A program made the position numbers and the translations under genes. From Candidatus Jingweiarchaeum tengchongense (lineage in GTDB: Archaea > Nanobdellota > Nanobdellia > Jingweiarchaeales > Jingweiarchaeaceae), in assembly GCA_025920705.1 (NCBI GenBank), contig JAPDLJ010000010.1, forward strand, positions 1-35,588: a stretch of 35,588 nt of DNA. The letters are read 5' to 3'. Each line of letters begins with the position of its first letter. The first letter of the stretch is position 1. Below, in pieces: positions 27,335-35,588 of the stretch. The notes under the pieces were generated by a model. That model did no database searches. It was not told where the DNA came from and saw nothing but the letters and a program-made list of their open reading frames with translations.

Positions 27335-27436
27335 AGCCCCGTGGTGTAGTGGCCAAGCATAGCTAAGCTTTCGCTCTATAAGGCTCTGGTCACTGGGAGA
27401 AACCAGTTGACGGCGGTTCGAATCCGCCCGGGGCTA
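27335..27436 (+). tRNA. Interrupted tRNA gene, tRNA-Glu(TTC)-like, probable intron
   Basis: The acceptor stem (AGCCCCG 27335-27341 with CGGGGCT 27429-27435, then A73), a Glu/Asp/His-type D arm (GTGTAGTGGCCAAGCAT), and the T arm (GGCGG, TTCGAAT, CCGCC) are all intact. The gene is 102 nt, about 28-30 longer than a mature tRNA, with the excess in the anticodon arm. CTTTCG (27368-27373) is the usual loop of tRNA-Glu(TTC). TTTC (27369-27372) can pair with GAAA (27399-27402), followed by a three-base CCA, like the central helix and one bulge of an archaeal bulge-helix-bulge splice site. However, no single splice gives me a clean five-pair anticodon stem. So the tRNA gene is secure, the intron likely, the identity tentative, and a pseudogene is possible. 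Confidence 0.65.
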
Positions 27437-27753: not shown

Positions 27754-29271
27754 ATGTCAGAAATTTTACCAACAATACCAGAATTCGAAGAAATAACAAA
27801 GGTAGATGTGAGTTATCCACTCATACCACCATTTGCCAGTGCCCACATATTTTGGGATGATAAAGAGAAACAACTGGTGTATTATGTTATAGAACCAGAG
27901 TTAAGTGAGGATGAAAAACGCATTTTAATACTCGTGGCAAACACATTAATTGAAGCGCTTGAAGTTGAAATTTCAGCATTAGAAAAGAAAGAAGTTGAGG
28001 AGATAATAACAGAAGCCACGAACAGGATACTGAAGGAATATAATCTGAAACTCACTAGGGATACATTAAGTAAAATTATGTACTTCATTTTTAGGAATTC
28101 AGTTGGTTTCAACGAGATTGAACCACTTATGAGAGATCCCTACATTGAAGATATCACTTGCGATGGGGTTGGTATACCTATTTTTGTTGTACATAAAAAA
28201 TTTGGAAGTTTAAGAACGAATGTAATTTTTAATGAAGTAAAAAAATTACAAGATTTTGTCATAAAGATTGCACAAAGAACTGGCAGGTATGTGAGCTACG
28301 CAGAGCCACTTCTAGATGGAACACTTCCAGATGGTTCAAGGGTACAGGCAACATTTTCTAAAGACGTCACAACAAGGGGGCCGACGTTTACGATTAGAAA
28401 ATTTCCGGAAAAGCCATTTTCCATTACCAGTTTAATCAAGAGTAAAACAGCCAGCTCAGAAATACTAGCTTATATGTGGTTGGCGATCAAAAATAGGTGT
28501 AATATACTGGTTACTGGTGGTACTGGTGCTGGTAAAACCACATTTTTAAACGCAATATGTGTTTTCATACCAAGATCGGCAAAGGTAGTGAGTGTTGAAG
28601 ATACAAGGGAACTCACGCTTCCACACGAGAACTGGACACCAGCAGTCACTAGGACCGGATTTGGTCCACCAGATATGACTGGAAAAAAATACGGTGAAAT
28701 TAACCTTTTTGATCTATTAAAAGAGAGCTTCAGACAGCGACCAGACTATGTGATCGTTGGTGAGGTTCGTGGTGCCGAAGCCTTCGTGCTTTTCCAAGGA
28801 GCTGCTTCCGGCCACCCAAGTATGGGCACGATACATGCTGGAAGTGTGGAAGAGGTAGTTAAGAGGCTCCAAGGCCCACCCATAAATCTACCAAGCACTT
28901 TTCTTAAATTGCTTGATGTAGTAGTTGTGATGACTTTTGCAAAATCACTTGGGGAAAATGTGAGAAGGGTGAAAGAAGTTTCAGAAGTTGAGTTTGTTGA
29001 TCCAAGAACAAACGAAGTGATTGAAAAAAAAGTTTTTGTTTGGGACCCATCCACAGACACATTTAGATCATCGCCAGACTCTGTTGTTCTTAAAAAAATC
29101 AGCGAAAATACTGGAACCCCAATTGATAAATTGAGAGAGGAACTGGAGAAGACGAAAAAGATATTAGATTGGATGGTTAGTAAGAATATAGAAGATTATT
29201 CAGAAGTTGCAAAAATCATTGAAATGTATGAAAAATCACCAAATGAATTGTTTAAACTTATAGGTATGTAA
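27754..29271 (+). CDS. Type IV pilus/archaellum assembly ATPase (VirB11/TadA/ArlI-like)
   Basis: 505 residues. Walker A GGTGAGKTT at 255-263, Asp box SVEDTRELTLPHENW near 280-294, Walker B VIVGEVRG at 333-340 and His box MGTIHAGS follow an N-terminal domain containing GFNEIEPLMRDPYIEDITCDG, typical of archaeal secretion ATPases. Residues from about 440 on are a helical extension. It would energise pilus subunit assembly with the two platform proteins encoded just downstream. It is the first gene of a tightly packed locus (2-bp gap to the next gene). The presence of the FGPPDMTGKKYGEINLFDLLK segment points to the ArlI/TadA-like archaeal branch; I cannot decide between archaellum and pilus because no other arl genes are present. 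Confidence 0.95.
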   Translation: MSEILPTIPEFEEITKVDVSYPLIPPFASAHIFWDDKEKQLVYYVIEPELSEDEKRILILVANTLIEALEVEISALEKKEVEEIITEATNRILKEYNLKLTRDTLSKIMYFIFRNSVGFNEIEPLMRDPYIEDITCDGVGIPIFVVHKKFGSLRTNVIFNEVKKLQDFVIKIAQRTGRYVSYAEPLLDGTLPDGSRVQATFSKDVTTRGPTFTIRKFPEKPFSITSLIKSKTASSEILAYMWLAIKNRCNILVTGGTGAGKTTFLNAICVFIPRSAKVVSVEDTRELTLPHENWTPAVTRTGFGPPDMTGKKYGEINLFDLLKESFRQRPDYVIVGEVRGAEAFVLFQGAASGHPSMGTIHAGSVEEVVKRLQGPPINLPSTFLKLLDVVVVMTFAKSLGENVRRVKEVSEVEFVDPRTNEVIEKKVFVWDPSTDTFRSSPDSVVLKKISENTGTPIDKLREELEKTKKILDWMVSKNIEDYSEVAKIIEMYEKSPNELFKLIGM

Positions 29272-29273
29272 AT

Positions 29274-29579
29274 ATGGAAACAAACTTGAACTCAATATTT
29301 GAAAATTCAAAAGAGATAATGAAGAACATTGAAATACTCAAAACATTGGTTGTTGAAGAAGAGGCAATAAAGAATGACATGGACAAGACATACAAAGAAT
29401 ATGAAAGTGGAGAAATAAGTAAGGAAATCTATGAAGAGATAATCAGTTCTAAGTCAAAAGAGATAGCAAATTTAAAACAGAGACAGATAGATTTGCTTTA
29501 CAAAATCACAGAAGCATCGAGACAGATATATGAATTGACTTATTCTGAAATTAGAGAAATAAGTGAGAATATTGAGTAA
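29274..29579 (+). CDS. Small coiled-coil protein in the pilus operon
   Basis: 101 residues, acidic and all-helical (NIEILKTLVVEEEAIKNDMD; SKSKEIANLKQRQIDLLYKI), with no signal or membrane segment. It lies between the motor ATPase (2-bp gap) and the first platform protein (17-bp overlap), so it is translated with them. The N-terminal cytoplasmic part of the platform protein is also helical and charged, so this may be a cytoplasmic linker or adaptor between motor and platform. No family recognised. Confidence 0.75.
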   Translation: METNLNSIFENSKEIMKNIEILKTLVVEEEAIKNDMDKTYKEYESGEISKEIYEEIISSKSKEIANLKQRQIDLLYKITEASRQIYELTYSEIREISENIE

Positions 29580-30972
29580 GGAAAAGAAAAAATTTGATTT
29601 TGAAAAAATTAAATTAGATGAAGAAAAACTTACGAATTTGTATCAAAGAGCAAAAAACATAAAATTCTTGAGTCAAGAAGCCAGCATATATAAAGAGAAG
29701 CTGAATCTAGTTTTTGAACTACCAAAAAGAATAAGAAAGATGCTGGAGAAGGGCGAAGTTACTGATCGAGAATATGACTTATTGACAAAAACATATGAAT
29801 CTATCAGGGAATATGAAAAGATATTAAGAGAAGATTTACCAAAATACCTACAATGTCTTATGTCAATTGTGAATGATTCACTAGGCATATACTCTGAACT
29901 CACGAATGAGACCCTAGTCACAGAAAAAGCAAAATTGCTTTTTGAGCGGGTGTTTTTGAGGATCAGAGGCGTTAGGGAAAAGAAGAGCGTAGTGGAAGTA
30001 CCAGTAGAAAAAGAGATACCAATCATAAAGATGAAAAAGTTTAGTATGGCAGCAGTTAAACCAGAACAAAAAACACCAGAAAAAACCAGAAGATTTAAGT
30101 TTTCTAGGGAATTTGCGTTAGTACCCTATTACATGCTGTCTAATAGCTTGTTTGGTAGCATATACGATAGTTACACAGATAGTTTTACCCAATTTGAAAA
30201 TACGCTTAAAAAAGCAGATATAAAAATTCTAACAAGAACTTATGTGTCAGTGATGTTTTTTACTGCATGGCTCTCTTATGTCATCGTTGTTATACTACAT
30301 TTATTAATCAGACCAATATTTCCAAATCCAATGTTTTACACATTGTATTATTTAATCCCAATTATAACATTCCTAATCTTTTATCTCTATCCAAGTTACA
30401 GGGCAAAGGAGAGGGAGAGGAGTATAAATACAAATCTACCATTCGCAATTAATTATATGAGCGCAATAGCAGCAAGCGGTCTTTCCCCATACCACTTGTT
30501 TAGGATCATGTACGAATCTAAAGAATATGGGGAAATAAGGAGAGAGATGGGGCGAATCGTGGGAATTAGCGATGAACTTGGTTTGGACGTGGTTAGTTCA
30601 TTAAAAAATGTTGCATCCACAACCCCAAGCGAGAATCTATCAAAATTTCTTTTAGGTATTAGCTCTACAATTGAAACCGGTGGTGATCTAAGGAAATTTT
30701 TAGAAGTTGAGTCAGAGAAAGCCCTTTTTGAGTACGAGATAAGAAGAAAAAAATATCATGAGTTATTATCCACGTATGCAGATATATATGCCGCTGTTGC
30801 TGTTGCAGCCCCATTATTCTTAATTGCCACATTAACACTATTAAATGCACTTGGTGGCACGATAATGGGATTTTCAATCCAAAGTTTATTATTTTTAGGG
30901 ACCTACATTATCTTACCATTTTTAAACATCATCTTTATTTTTTTCGTTGAAATCACACAACCACAAATGTAG
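29563..30972 (+). CDS. Type II secretion F-domain platform protein (TadC/ArlJ-like), first copy
   Basis: 469 residues from a GTG at 29563 that overlaps the preceding gene by 17 bp; a TTG at 29572 is an alternative. Residues 1-210 are a charged helical cytoplasmic domain. Two helices lie at about 225-280, the T2SSF domain covers about 290-400 (NLPFAINYMSAIAASGLSP; ISSTIETGGDLRKFLEVE), and two more helices sit at the end. It forms the inner-membrane platform on which the ATPase assembles the filament. A similar but shorter paralogue follows 8 bp downstream, the TadB/TadC-like two-platform arrangement. Confidence 0.9.
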   Translation: MRILSKEKKKFDFEKIKLDEEKLTNLYQRAKNIKFLSQEASIYKEKLNLVFELPKRIRKMLEKGEVTDREYDLLTKTYESIREYEKILREDLPKYLQCLMSIVNDSLGIYSELTNETLVTEKAKLLFERVFLRIRGVREKKSVVEVPVEKEIPIIKMKKFSMAAVKPEQKTPEKTRRFKFSREFALVPYYMLSNSLFGSIYDSYTDSFTQFENTLKKADIKILTRTYVSVMFFTAWLSYVIVVILHLLIRPIFPNPMFYTLYYLIPIITFLIFYLYPSYRAKERERSINTNLPFAINYMSAIAASGLSPYHLFRIMYESKEYGEIRREMGRIVGISDELGLDVVSSLKNVASTTPSENLSKFLLGISSTIETGGDLRKFLEVESEKALFEYEIRRKKYHELLSTYADIYAAVAVAAPLFLIATLTLLNALGGTIMGFSIQSLLFLGTYIILPFLNIIFIFFVEITQPQM

Positions 30973-30980
30973 GTGAACAA

Positions 30981-31763
30981 ATGGAATTATATGAGATAGC
31001 AGTTGTATCAGCAGTGATATTAGCGGTGGGAATAGCAATTATCTTCTTCATGAAAATGATGAATCTATTACCAATAGTATTAATAATTTCAGCAATACCT
31101 ATTGCGCTATACTTATACTTAGATTACAGAAAAACAAAAGAAATCGAGAAGATGTTTCCATATTTCATCACGGATGTTACTGAAGTAGTTCGAGCAGGCA
31201 TGCCATTAACCCAGGCGATGAAATACCTATCTAAGAATGAGTACGGTGAACTATCAAAACACATCCGAAAGATATCAGCCAAGATTGATCTCGGTGTACC
31301 ATTGAGCAAGGCACTTACTTCTTTTGGTGAGGAAAGCAAAAGTAAAATCGTAAAAAGAGCAATTGCGACGATCATAAAAGTAGAAGAATACGGAGGGAAT
31401 CTCGTAAATGTTTTAAATAATGTGGTTGAATCGATTAGGATGATTGATAAATTGAAAAGCGAGAGAGAACTTTTAATCTATGGTTCCGTGACGCAATGTT
31501 ATGTAATATTTTTGATATTTTTGGGAATAATGGTTGCCATGTATAAATTTTTATTCCCAATGCTCTCGATGGGGGTTGGTTCAGCCGAAGCATTAATCGG
31601 CGTAGATTACACACAATTATTTACGAATCTTGCTCTAATCCAAGCATTGTTGAGCGGGATTGTGATCGGTAAAATAACAGAGGGAAAATTACTATCTGGT
31701 CTAAAACATTCCGTGGTTTTGGGTATTGTTTCATATGCTGTTGCATCGCTGTTGGCGATTTGA
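30981..31763 (+). CDS. Type II secretion F-domain platform protein (TadC/ArlJ-like), second copy
   Basis: 260 residues. Two N-terminal helices (about 3-45), the T2SSF domain at about 57-165 (MFPYFITDVTEVVRAGMPL; VEEYGGNLVNVLNNVVESI) and three or four C-terminal helices. It lacks the long cytoplasmic N-terminus of the first copy, so the two probably form a hetero-oligomer. An AGGTGA ribosome-binding site (30971-30976) overlaps the upstream stop codon region and supports the ATG at 30981. The next gene begins with no intervening base. Confidence 0.9.
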   Translation: MELYEIAVVSAVILAVGIAIIFFMKMMNLLPIVLIISAIPIALYLYLDYRKTKEIEKMFPYFITDVTEVVRAGMPLTQAMKYLSKNEYGELSKHIRKISAKIDLGVPLSKALTSFGEESKSKIVKRAIATIIKVEEYGGNLVNVLNNVVESIRMIDKLKSERELLIYGSVTQCYVIFLIFLGIMVAMYKFLFPMLSMGVGSAEALIGVDYTQLFTNLALIQALLSGIVIGKITEGKLLSGLKHSVVLGIVSYAVASLLAI

Positions 31764-32924
31764 ATGGGTGTGGTTGATATTATAATAGCTACTGCAATAT
31801 TTTCTTTCTTTTTTTTATATGCACTGTTCTTCATAAATTCAGTACAAGTTGAGTTCAGATCTCCAACCTCACTTGTGATAGATAATATTTTTGAAAACTT
31901 GAAGACGGAAGTTTTAAGGATTCCCATCAAAATAAAGAGTAACTATACATTAATTTGGGAAGTAGCAGAGATTGAACTTAAATGGATAGACAAGAATTCC
32001 ACAGTCGTTAAAATTGGTCAACAAGTTATTCCATCACAATTCTTGGAGGATGAATTGATTTTTCCACTTAACTCCAGTGATTTTGATATTAATATATACT
32101 TTGTGAATGGGACGAATAGAAGTAGAGCAAGCTATTCAACCGACTTATCTTTTTTAGAATTTTCACAATATTTTAAGATCAGCAATTCTTTTTATGATGC
32201 AAATTTGCAAAAAAATTGCACATTAAATAACATTTCCTCCTATGGATTTAATGTTTTTAGTGATGGTATAAACACAGATGAAACTATTACTGAAGAAGTA
32301 GTCGACAATGTGTCAGTAAAAATATCATGTACCAACATATCCTACAATTTTTTTTCTTACTCGCCAAAAATAAAAGTAATGACAAGAAAAAGCATCACGA
32401 TTGGCCTAAAACCGAATTTCACAAATTGGGAGACAGAGTCGTCAAGTAGTACAATAACAGGAGATTTGAACTTATTGGTCAAGAAAATTTTACTCTATAA
32501 CACATCATTGAGACTCTTATTCTTAGAATTTATGGATATCACCAATGTCACGATTCATCCAGAAACAGGGAAAATTTCATTGATTATAAATGAACCATCT
32601 AACTTTTCAATTTACGTGGTTAATTTCTCGAATGAGAACAGGAATTACTACAAGAATAGAGAACTTGACATTACCGTTGGTGCAATAGAGAAGAACATTG
32701 CACTTGTGAATGAAAGTATAACCAGTTTTATGTTAGAAGACTACAATCTATTAAAAAATAAGTTTGGATACAATTTTTTTGTCGAAGTTTTAATAGACGG
32801 CAACCTTGCCGGCATCAAGGGGACATACTTAAGTGAGGTCAAGAGATTAGGTGAAAGGAATATTTTTTATTACGATGATAAATATGACAAAAAATTAGCA
32901 CTGGTGAGGATTGGAATATGGTAA
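31764..32924 (+). CDS. Membrane-anchored, heavily sequon-bearing extracellular protein
   Basis: 386 residues. One N-terminal helix (about 4-24, VVDIIIATAIFSFFFLYAL) anchors a large beta-rich outside domain. I count about 15 N-x-S/T sequons (for example NSS, NGT, NRS, NCT, NVS, NFT, NES), far more than cytoplasmic neighbours have, so N-glycosylation is likely. It carries only two cysteines, in NCTL and SCTN. Position in the pilus operon, directly after the platform genes, suggests a minor pilin or tip/anchor protein. The N-terminus has no canonical class III cleavage site. Its last 7 bp overlap the next gene. Confidence 0.75.
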   Translation: MGVVDIIIATAIFSFFFLYALFFINSVQVEFRSPTSLVIDNIFENLKTEVLRIPIKIKSNYTLIWEVAEIELKWIDKNSTVVKIGQQVIPSQFLEDELIFPLNSSDFDINIYFVNGTNRSRASYSTDLSFLEFSQYFKISNSFYDANLQKNCTLNNISSYGFNVFSDGINTDETITEEVVDNVSVKISCTNISYNFFSYSPKIKVMTRKSITIGLKPNFTNWETESSSSTITGDLNLLVKKILLYNTSLRLLFLEFMDITNVTIHPETGKISLIINEPSNFSIYVVNFSNENRNYYKNRELDITVGAIEKNIALVNESITSFMLEDYNLLKNKFGYNFFVEVLIDGNLAGIKGTYLSEVKRLGERNIFYYDDKYDKKLALVRIGIW

Positions 32925-33301
32925 AAAAAGCTGTTTTGAAAACATTTGAAGCGATAGCCGCATCTACGATACTGATAATTTTAATCGTATTAATTAATAA
33001 TGCTTATTTAGCAAAAATAAGTGAAAAAGACCAACAAATCATCTTCTTTTTACAAGATGCATTGATAATCCTGGATGAGAATCAGAGCCTGAGGGATAAC
33101 GCGCTTCGTTTTAATAATACTGAGATAGAGGAAGATATAGAGAAACTAAGTAATTCAAGTTTGGACATTTATGTAATGATATGTAATATGACAAATTGTA
33201 TTGGCAACAGTATAGAAACAGCAAATGTTGTTACTTATGTAATAGCTGGAAACGATAGCTTTAATCCATTGGAAGTGAAGGTATATGCAAAGAAAAAGTG
33301 A
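32918..33301 (+). CDS. Minor pilin-like protein
   Basis: 127 residues. The N-terminus MVKKAVLKTFEAIAASTILIILIVL combines a basic head, a glutamate at the position of the pilin +5 residue (FEA) and a long hydrophobic helix, resembling type IV pilin-like proteins. A short exported domain with two cysteines (VMICNMTNCIG) and three sequons follows. It overlaps both neighbours (7 bp and 17 bp), so it is translated in the operon. Likely a minor structural subunit. Confidence 0.68.
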   Translation: MVKKAVLKTFEAIAASTILIILIVLINNAYLAKISEKDQQIIFFLQDALIILDENQSLRDNALRFNNTEIEEDIEKLSNSSLDIYVMICNMTNCIGNSIETANVVTYVIAGNDSFNPLEVKVYAKKK

Positions 33302-33827: not shown

Positions 33828-34310
33828 ATGATGAATAAAAAAGGTATATCACCACTGATTGCAACAATCCTCTTAATTGCAATTACAATTGTAATTGGCG
33901 CATTGATAACAGCTTGGTCAACAACATATGTCTCCAGCCAGACACAGATGGTTGGTGGTGGAGGAGCAGCTTGTGTTTACGTAGGTCTGAGATCATCAAA
34001 TTGTAACTTAAACCAGAGTAATGCAACGCACCTCTACCTCATCATAGAGAATACAGGTACGAGATCAATCAGTGAAATTAAAGCAACAGTACAACTTGCC
34101 ACGGGGGAGAAGAAATTAACAAACGTTTCCGATACCGACGGCAGAATTCTTACTTTAGATGGACAAGAAGCAAAACCCGCATACATTGTGAATCCATTCA
34201 CCACAATAAATATCAATAACACAAACCAATGGAATAGCATCACACTTTGGGTGTACAATCCATCTTGCAGCGAAGTTAAATGGTCATTAAGTCCGAATGA
34301 TTGTCAATAA
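33828..34310 (+). CDS. Type IV pilin / archaellin-like subunit
   Basis: 160 residues with the textbook archaeal class III signal: MMNKKG then ISPLIATILLIAITIVIG, where the prepilin peptidase would cut after Gly6. The conserved hydrophobic helix (ISPLIATILL) is the archaellin/type IV pilin N-terminal domain and packs in the filament core. A beta-rich head follows, with four cysteines (ACVYVG, SNCNL, PSCSE, NDCQ) and at least four N-glycosylation sequons. It is probably the major filament subunit, transcribed from its own promoter. A second ATG three bases on (33831) is equally possible. Confidence 0.93.
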   Translation: MMNKKGISPLIATILLIAITIVIGALITAWSTTYVSSQTQMVGGGGAACVYVGLRSSNCNLNQSNATHLYLIIENTGTRSISEIKATVQLATGEKKLTNVSDTDGRILTLDGQEAKPAYIVNPFTTININNTNQWNSITLWVYNPSCSEVKWSLSPNDCQ

Positions 34311-34324
34311 ATTCATAGATCAAA

Positions 34325-35056
34325 ATGAAAGCAGTTGCCACTTGGGTATCTTACATTATGTATTTTGCAATTTCTTTAGTAGTAACCTCTCTTGTTCTTA
34401 ATTTTGGTCTACCCATGTTAACAAGGGCAAAAGACATTTCTATAATAAGTTCATCGAAGAATCAGCTTCAAGAAATGGCCGCAGCTATTTATGATATTTC
34501 AAAGGCAGGGCCAGGCTCTGCAACGACCATCTCTTTCAAAGTGGATGAAGGTTTCTTGGTTTTGGATCCTGAAAATGACAAGATATATTTTATGAAGAAT
34601 ATAACGGAAGGTGTGCTTTCTCCAAGGACAAGAGTAAGCGAGGGCCACATAATAGTTGCAAGTAATATAGAAGTTAGTAGTTATGAAACATTTGAAACGG
34701 ATGATTGTTGCTTTGTCTTGGAAAATTCTCATATCAAAGTAAAATTCTATAAATTTAACCAGGTAAATAGATACACAAACAATGTTATTAAAGAATTCAT
34801 TTTTAAGGATCAAAATAAGACACTAAATTTTGGCGGGGTAGAGATACTCATAGATGATAATGAAACAACGATTGTTGGTAAAATAAAGACACAGTTGTTA
34901 AATACAGGTAGCCTACTGCCTAAAGCATCTTTACTCGAAAATGTTGATGATTCAGAAGCTAATGGTGGTGCAGGATATTGCTATGATGTTAAGTACACGT
35001 TAGAAAGCGAAGCAGATTTCCTTTTAATAAATATAGAAAACTTAAGGAGATGTTAA
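34325..35056 (+). CDS. Pilin-like protein in the pilus locus
   Basis: 243 residues. One N-terminal helix starting almost at the first residue (MKAVATWVSYIMYFAISLVV), then a pseudopilin-like amphipathic stretch (NQLQEMAAAIYDISKAGPGS) and a beta-rich domain with a Cys pair (DDCCFV) and further cysteines near the end (GGAGYCYDV, LRRC). No clear class III cleavage site. It lies 14 bp after the pilin and ends flush with the next gene. A minor pilin or priming-complex subunit is the simplest reading. Confidence 0.68.
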   Translation: MKAVATWVSYIMYFAISLVVTSLVLNFGLPMLTRAKDISIISSSKNQLQEMAAAIYDISKAGPGSATTISFKVDEGFLVLDPENDKIYFMKNITEGVLSPRTRVSEGHIIVASNIEVSSYETFETDDCCFVLENSHIKVKFYKFNQVNRYTNNVIKEFIFKDQNKTLNFGGVEILIDDNETTIVGKIKTQLLNTGSLLPKASLLENVDDSEANGGAGYCYDVKYTLESEADFLLINIENLRRC

Positions 35057-35461
35057 ATGCAAATACGTTTTGAGAGCAAGTTTGTAATACCAATTGTTTT
35101 AGTGATAATAGGTGTAATAATCGCTCTAGTTTTATTTTATCCTGGCAAGGGCACAAAAAGTTATGGGGTGAGTGAAGGGAGTGAAGTGCAGTTTAAGACA
35201 AATTATTATTTACTACTTTTTTATATCCCAGGCAGTCCAATTTCAGAGAATCAATTACAAATCACGAGAAAGGTTTTGAGTGAGTCAAAATTTCAGAATA
35301 TCAAGTTACATTTGATAAATAAGAATGATAATTTAACAGTTAAGTACAATGTAACTGACTTTCCCACTTTAATCTTATTTAGAGATAGTACAATACTATG
35401 GCGTGAAGGAATGTTGAGTGAAATACAACTCAGATCAAAACTAGAAGAATCTGTTACTTAA
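35057..35461 (+). CDS. Membrane-anchored thioredoxin-fold protein lacking both active-site cysteines
   Basis: 134 residues. A signal-anchor helix at about 10-27 (VIPIVLVIIGVIIALVLF) is followed by a compact thioredoxin-like domain: the first strand and active-site loop LLLFYIPGSPIS (53-63), a helix, the second strand, and the cis-proline motif DFPTLILF (Pro103). In thioredoxins the loop reads FWAPWCGPC; here the two Cys positions are Ser60 and Ser63 (GSPIS), so dithiol chemistry is not possible. AAGGAGAT (35044-35051) gives a strong ribosome-binding site. As last gene of the pilus locus, outside the membrane, it may act as a holdase or scaffold for the cysteine-rich subunits. The fold call is by motif, not by structure. 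Confidence 0.72.
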   Translation: MQIRFESKFVIPIVLVIIGVIIALVLFYPGKGTKSYGVSEGSEVQFKTNYYLLLFYIPGSPISENQLQITRKVLSESKFQNIKLHLINKNDNLTVKYNVTDFPTLILFRDSTILWREGMLSEIQLRSKLEESVT

Positions 35462-35462
35462 A

Positions 35463-35588
35463 TTAGACCCTCTCAACCAATATCTCCAACTTACCTTCCC
35501 TGAGCCCATCATTCCTTATCTTAAACTTGTACAATCCCTGTGGTAATACCAATTTGTTACCTGTCAGGTTCAAGTTGGTTCCACTTAC
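35463..35588 (-). CDS. 3' end of an opposite-strand gene, unknown product
   Basis: From the window edge the minus strand is open for 41 codons and ends at TAG-free TAA (35463-35465). It reads like the tail of a beta-rich, possibly exported protein (LVLPQGLYKFKIRNDGLRE, then GKLEILVERV). Codon use is less AT-rich than in its neighbours. The 5' part lies outside the window. Its stop is one base from the stop of the thioredoxin-fold gene. Confidence 0.6.
   Translation of the reverse strand, partial: VSGTNLNLTGNKLVLPQGLYKFKIRNDGLREGKLEILVERV

Follow-up and report, generated by a model that had tools for sequence, protein, structure and literature searches.

The stretch of DNA analysed here (the window), 35,588 bases long, is an entire contig of a 1.1 Mb archaeal genome bin. 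The archaeal SRP RNA and tRNAs are present on the contig, and positions 27335-27436 (102 bases) gave an Rfam tRNA match of 39.9 bits that was missed by ARAGORN; this is perhaps an intron-bearing tRNA.

The pilus operon is located on the plus strand. Its secretion ATPase, E (27754-29271), is ArlI/BasE-like, matches PF00437 (E=6e-34), and scores 440 bits against the NCBIfam archaellum motor ATPase profile, which is below the cut-off of 550. A gene for a helical protein of 101 aa and unknown function (29274-29579) separates it from the gene of the ArlJ/UpsF-like F1 (29563-30972), which, like F2 (30981-31763; PF00482, E=8e-20), is a T2SSF platform protein. Downstream of these are located the genes of five exported single-helix proteins: the pilin-like A386 (31764-32924), the small pilin-like B127 (32918-33301), the pilin-like C166 (33285-33785), the type IV pilin PIL160 (33828-34310) and the pilin-like D243 (34325-35056). 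PIL160 contains the class III signal MMNKKG|ISPLIATILLIAI, and its match to Pilin_N (E=0.008) is below the gathering cut-off. Homologues of B127 were detected in 7 loci of the class, most of these proteins having a C..C pair in the corresponding region, and those of D243 in 18 loci. The PF00437 match, the two PF00482 matches, the weak Pilin_N match combined with the KKG signal of PIL160, and a gene set that is common to the class identify the region as an archaeal type IV pilus locus.

In A386, B127 and C166, N-glycosylation sequons are significantly more numerous than in shuffled sequences. A386 has 15 sequons where its composition would give 6, which suggests a surface protein with heavy glycosylation. 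The initial annotation described several exported proteins of the locus as cysteine-rich. The cysteine counts of the five are 2, 2, 7, 4 and 4, of which the 7 belong to the sequon-rich C166; the description therefore fits this protein well, and the other four less so.

The last gene (35057-35461, plus strand) encodes a protein of 134 aa, which is the subject of this work; the coordinates and translation given for it in the initial annotation are exact. Its ATG directly follows the TAA of D243, so that the junction has zero bases, and the sequence AAGGAG is present upstream of this ATG within the last codons of D243. The zero-base junction and the ribosome-binding-like site point to translation together with the pilin-like protein. 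In its codon statistics, frame 1 is like the remaining genes of the operon, and all other frames give negative values. One base pair beyond the gene, at 35463, lies the end of a minus-strand ORF (35463-35588) that is convergent with it. This ORF bounds the operon and supports the view that the 134-codon gene closes it, although it is open at the contig end, which lies 127 bases past the gene. Scans for promoters and terminators gave nothing above chance.

The thioredoxin fold and the altered active site

The only sensible Pfam and NCBIfam matches of the 134-aa protein are to thioredoxin-fold families, and all are below their cut-offs. The best Pfam match by E-value is TraF (PF13728; E=0.0024, 18.2 bits versus a gathering cut-off of 23), followed by Thioredoxin_2 (E=0.0041) and Thioredoxin (PF00085; E=0.028, 14.9 bits versus 23.5), and NCBIfam TIGR01068 gave E=0.0021 with 18.2 of 96.8 bits. 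Membership of the TraF family was rejected, because the score is too low and the neighbouring genes are T2SSE, T2SSF and pilin-like genes instead of traH, traW and traU. An HMM made of eight thioredoxins of the class detected the protein with 32.7 bits, mainly over residues 78-132 (E=6.5e-9 in a search space of several thousand ORFs of pilus loci). Nearly all of the best matches in a sequence search of the PDB were chains of thioredoxin or PDI, none of them strong by itself (E=0.006 to 0.4). The highest-ranking one, an ERdj5 chain, has SPPS as its aligned motif. Alignments to 40 thioredoxins scored many standard deviations above those of shuffled sequences (for the first 20, 54 versus 25 +/- 1.8).

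A structure model made without an alignment was unusable (pLDDT 46). When guided by an alignment of 30 thioredoxins from viral contigs, the model has a pLDDT above 90 from residue 50 on and the strand and helix order of thioredoxin (E50-55, H61-74, E82-87, H92-96, E104-109, E112-117, H122-133). All matches listed in a PDB fold search with this model have the thioredoxin fold (probability 1.00, rmsd about 2 Å). On this thioredoxin-guided model, the beta-alpha-beta-alpha-beta-beta-alpha core and the cis-proline of the superfamily are both present. As it leans on the alignment, the model indicates compatibility with the thioredoxin fold and is not stand-alone proof of it. The sequence searches, the guided model and the fold search agree, and the predicted thioredoxin fold, which had been proposed from the sequence, is well supported. 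The initial annotation had asked for a structure prediction and fold search and named a result without this fold as refuting; the fold came out.

The protein resembles thioredoxin (PF00085/TIGR01068) in its fold, its cis-proline and a glycine near the C-terminus, with a matched region of residues 77-131. Unlike thioredoxin, it has an N-terminal anchor and lacks the CxxC motif, the buried aspartate and the active-site tryptophan. The cis-proline is that of an FPT motif (codon 103, positions 35363-35365, plus strand) and falls on the cis-proline of thioredoxin in 39 of 40 local alignments. At the position of CxxC, the protein has SPIS (S60-P-I-S63; codons 60-63, positions 35234-35245, plus strand), as seen in the ungapped alignment of FYIPGSPIS with FWAEWCGPC. 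The register of the two serines is less forced by the sequence alone: strict pairwise global alignment placed both on the two cysteines in 17 of 40 cases, and MAFFT introduced a gap within the active-site loop when full-length thioredoxins were used, while trimming of the N-termini resulted in the ungapped register. The register does fit by spacing, which is a check independent of it: S63 and P103 are 40 residues apart, and this distance is 39-42 in 38 of the 40 thioredoxins. In the model, which was made on an alignment in this register, the active-site helix begins at residue 61.

The replacement of both catalytic cysteines by serines 60 and 63, claimed in the initial annotation, is borne out in that the protein contains no cysteine at all, and the conclusion on redox activity consequently does not depend on the register. 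In the ungapped alignment with E. coli thioredoxin, the catalytic residues D26, W31, C32, P34, C35 and P40 are replaced by L54, G59, S60, I62, S63 and Q68, whereas P76, T77 and G92, which are fold and groove residues, are kept as P103, T104 and G118. The loss of the buried aspartate, the tryptophan, both cysteines and the helix proline excludes thiol-disulfide chemistry by this protein; a non-redox role, as had been proposed, follows from the loss of both cysteines. Its assignment as a thioredoxin oxidoreductase (PF00085) was rejected for the SPIS motif and the score below cut-off. The cis-proline groove is kept, and the loss of catalytic but not of structural residues suggests a retained function.

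Membrane anchor and other thioredoxin-fold proteins

The anchor helix of the initial annotation was found both by hydropathy and in the model: residues 9-27 (positions 35081-35137, plus strand) form a single hydrophobic transmembrane helix with a mean Kyte-Doolittle value of 3.4, modelled as helix 7-27. Charges flank it on both sides, so that the topology is ambiguous by charge, and the number of sequons in the protein is at chance level (2 versus 1.0). A short N-terminal tail ahead of a single strong helix usually adopts the N-in form. The N-terminus, MQIRFESKFVIPIVLVII, does not contain a class III signal peptide (K/R-G before a hydrophobic helix), and the protein was therefore rejected as an archaeal type IV pilin.

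CxxC is present in each of the five other thioredoxin-fold proteins that the genome encodes: a soluble thioredoxin (CGPC) whose gene adjoins that of thioredoxin reductase, an 85-aa redoxin (CPNC), a membrane protein linked to a GT2 gene (CGNC), a membrane-anchored thioredoxin of 142 aa (CPHC) adjoining a DsbA-like protein, and a CcdA-type membrane protein with a thioredoxin domain (CPHC). For the membrane-anchored CPHC thioredoxin, the pattern is clearly N-in, with the thioredoxin domain outside. The 134-aa protein is thus the redox-inactive exception in this genome and not its sole membrane thioredoxin.

The GT2-linked protein belongs to a family, L13, of membrane-anchored proteins of 210-250 aa consisting of a transmembrane segment, a helical middle and a thioredoxin domain, with matches in 300 of the 378 genomes of the class; examples are located in G000 C1 at about 191278-191955 (L142:1126-1803), L103:8088-8744, L110-L139 and L227-L246. 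No Pfam family matched above its cut-off. There is usually an overlap of a few bases between the L13 gene and the end of a GT2 glycosyltransferase gene encoding 410-420 aa. A sample of 20 copies from different families includes 16 with CxxC; none of the 30 copies nearest to the query has it, and these have D/E..S..QG instead. L13 and GT2 look like a conserved, undescribed pair, with one branch lacking the redox site. In family f48, the L13 gene is found 2-3 kb downstream of platform gene F2 (L077:7689-8381 and L095:7395-8090, both on the minus strand, and G125 C18:5440-6072); L077 and L095 are the two of 40 pilus loci with L13 downstream of a platform gene. The 134-aa protein shares with L13 the N-terminal anchor and the thioredoxin-fold domain, and CxxC has likewise been lost in one large L13 branch. 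However, L13 proteins are about 220 aa long, have the helical middle and adjoin a GT2 gene, and the genome's own member has CGNC. L13 was rejected as the source of the 134-aa protein, which scores 12 bits against the L13 profile and 32 bits against thioredoxin; the genome's own member scores 194 bits against L13.

Distribution and gene order across the class

Searches of 378 genomes of the class, of the protein's own genome, of a sample of the phylum (371 genomes, mostly of the same class) and of viral contigs gave no orthologue of the 134-aa protein with a usable E-value; the weak matches in these searches are the C-terminal halves of ordinary thioredoxins. The order and family of this archaeon are represented by this one genome in the collection, and the gene could therefore be common in an unsampled group. 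So far, the protein is a lineage-specific oddity found in one genome.

The same pilus core is present in 40 other loci of the class, none of which has a comparable thioredoxin-fold gene adjoining the core pilus genes. The initial annotation had proposed surveying homologous loci, in which a homologue retaining CxxC would speak against it; the survey yielded neither such a homologue nor a true orthologue. A thioredoxin-like ORF located 5.6 kb from pilus locus L082 was rejected as a relative, since it keeps CxxC and has no anchor. A D243 homologue is detectable in 18 of the 40 loci, just upstream of the ATPase gene and, in 17 of these 18, within about 100 bases of it. Here, by contrast with this norm, PIL160 and D243 are located at the operon's 3' end, where the thioredoxin-fold gene follows them.

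A candidate accessory of the archaeal pilus

Thioredoxin folds lacking CxxC are known from other pili. TraF of F-type systems is required for pilus extension, binds TraH and is thought to be a chaperone (PMC7555446, PMC11315126), and TrbC of F-type conjugative pili also has the fold without the motif (PMC10939261). The statement in the initial annotation that no described pilus system has such a component is accordingly wrong when all pili are considered (PMC10939261, PMC11315126, PMC7555446); in an archaeal pilus census, thioredoxin is mentioned only for a KaiB-like regulator (PMC4858521). Like TraF (PF13728), the 134-aa protein would be an exported thioredoxin-fold protein without CxxC, encoded alongside a pilus machine. 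TraF, on the other hand, is periplasmic, serves bacterial type IV secretion pili and has a separate N-terminal region that binds TraH; this locus encodes neither TraH nor TrbB nor any further Tra protein. The likeness would thus be one of working and not of family membership. In F-type systems, the redox-inactive TraF has been reported only together with the active TrbB (PMC11315126), and similarly this genome has separate active CxxC proteins beside the inactive one. Serines for catalytic cysteines are also found in the thioredoxin domains of PDILT (SKQS) and other altered-site PDI members, which are chaperones (PMC8026947). Unlike the 134-aa protein, PDILT is eukaryotic, multidomain, lumenal and unrelated to pili, and it keeps one cysteine in its other site.

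A pilus role is plausible. We give about an even chance to the reading that this membrane-tethered, catalytically dead protein is an accessory component of the archaeal type IV pilus with no catalytic role, probably helping to hold or assemble pilus parts instead of performing redox chemistry. The domain would face outside, and its peptide groove would bind the exported pilin-like subunits A386, B127, C166, PIL160 and D243, which would be kept or positioned at the platform for as long as they are unassembled. The disulfides of these subunits would come from the genome's CxxC proteins, which are separate from the 134-aa protein. The fold, the residue pattern, the operon coupling, the dedicated CxxC proteins, the cysteines and sequons of the neighbours and the TraF precedent all argue for this reading. 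Against it stand the 40 related loci that do without the gene, the ambiguous topology and the need for an ordinary-thioredoxin alignment to obtain a high-confidence model, and also the absence of an orthologue, because of which conservation or co-evolution with the pilus is not demonstrable.

Absence from the 40 loci speaks for a passenger, that is, a general envelope protein that came to lie at the operon's 3' end by chance and is unconnected with pili. Because the pilin-D243 block, too, has changed its place, the region is rearranged and may have picked up a neighbouring gene, and anchored thioredoxin-fold proteins without CxxC are common in the class in the glycosyltransferase-linked family. 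A chance neighbour would nonetheless have to be reconciled with the zero-base junction and ribosome-binding-like site, which suggest translation with a pilin-like protein, and we consider this explanation unlikely, if by no means negligible. Decay or recent disarming of a thioredoxin that was once a TrbB-like, pilus-linked oxidoreductase and is now cysteine-free and weakly selected is a good deal less probable: the path from cysteine to serine is short, several catalytic residues were lost together and no orthologues were found, but the frame is open with normal codon statistics and a good start context, and the intact fold-determining residues, with only catalytic ones lost, suggest a retained function. 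Least probable is a tethered adaptor with a cytoplasmic thioredoxin domain, binding for instance the ATPase or a platform protein, which the ambiguous charges would permit but against which both the usual N-in form of such short-tailed single helices and the outward domain of the genome's anchored CPHC thioredoxin argue. KaiB-like thioredoxin-fold regulators linked to archaeal pili, which would favour such an adaptor, have been discussed (PMC4858521).

Returning to the accessory reading, it is conceivable, at somewhat less than even chances, that an archaeal type IV pilus recruited a cysteine-free, tethered thioredoxin-fold assembly factor independently of TraF and TrbC. Little is known of archaeal pilus assembly factors beyond the ATPase, the platform and the pilins, particularly in archaea that have small genomes and are hard to culture. 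Should the gene be a mere passenger, it would be a warning that a thioredoxin beside pilus genes need not signal disulfide formation. If the assembly role is true, two unrelated machines for building pili would each have taken over a thioredoxin fold stripped of its redox activity, and this would suggest that the peptide-binding groove of the fold is a general-purpose holder for subunits that are exported.
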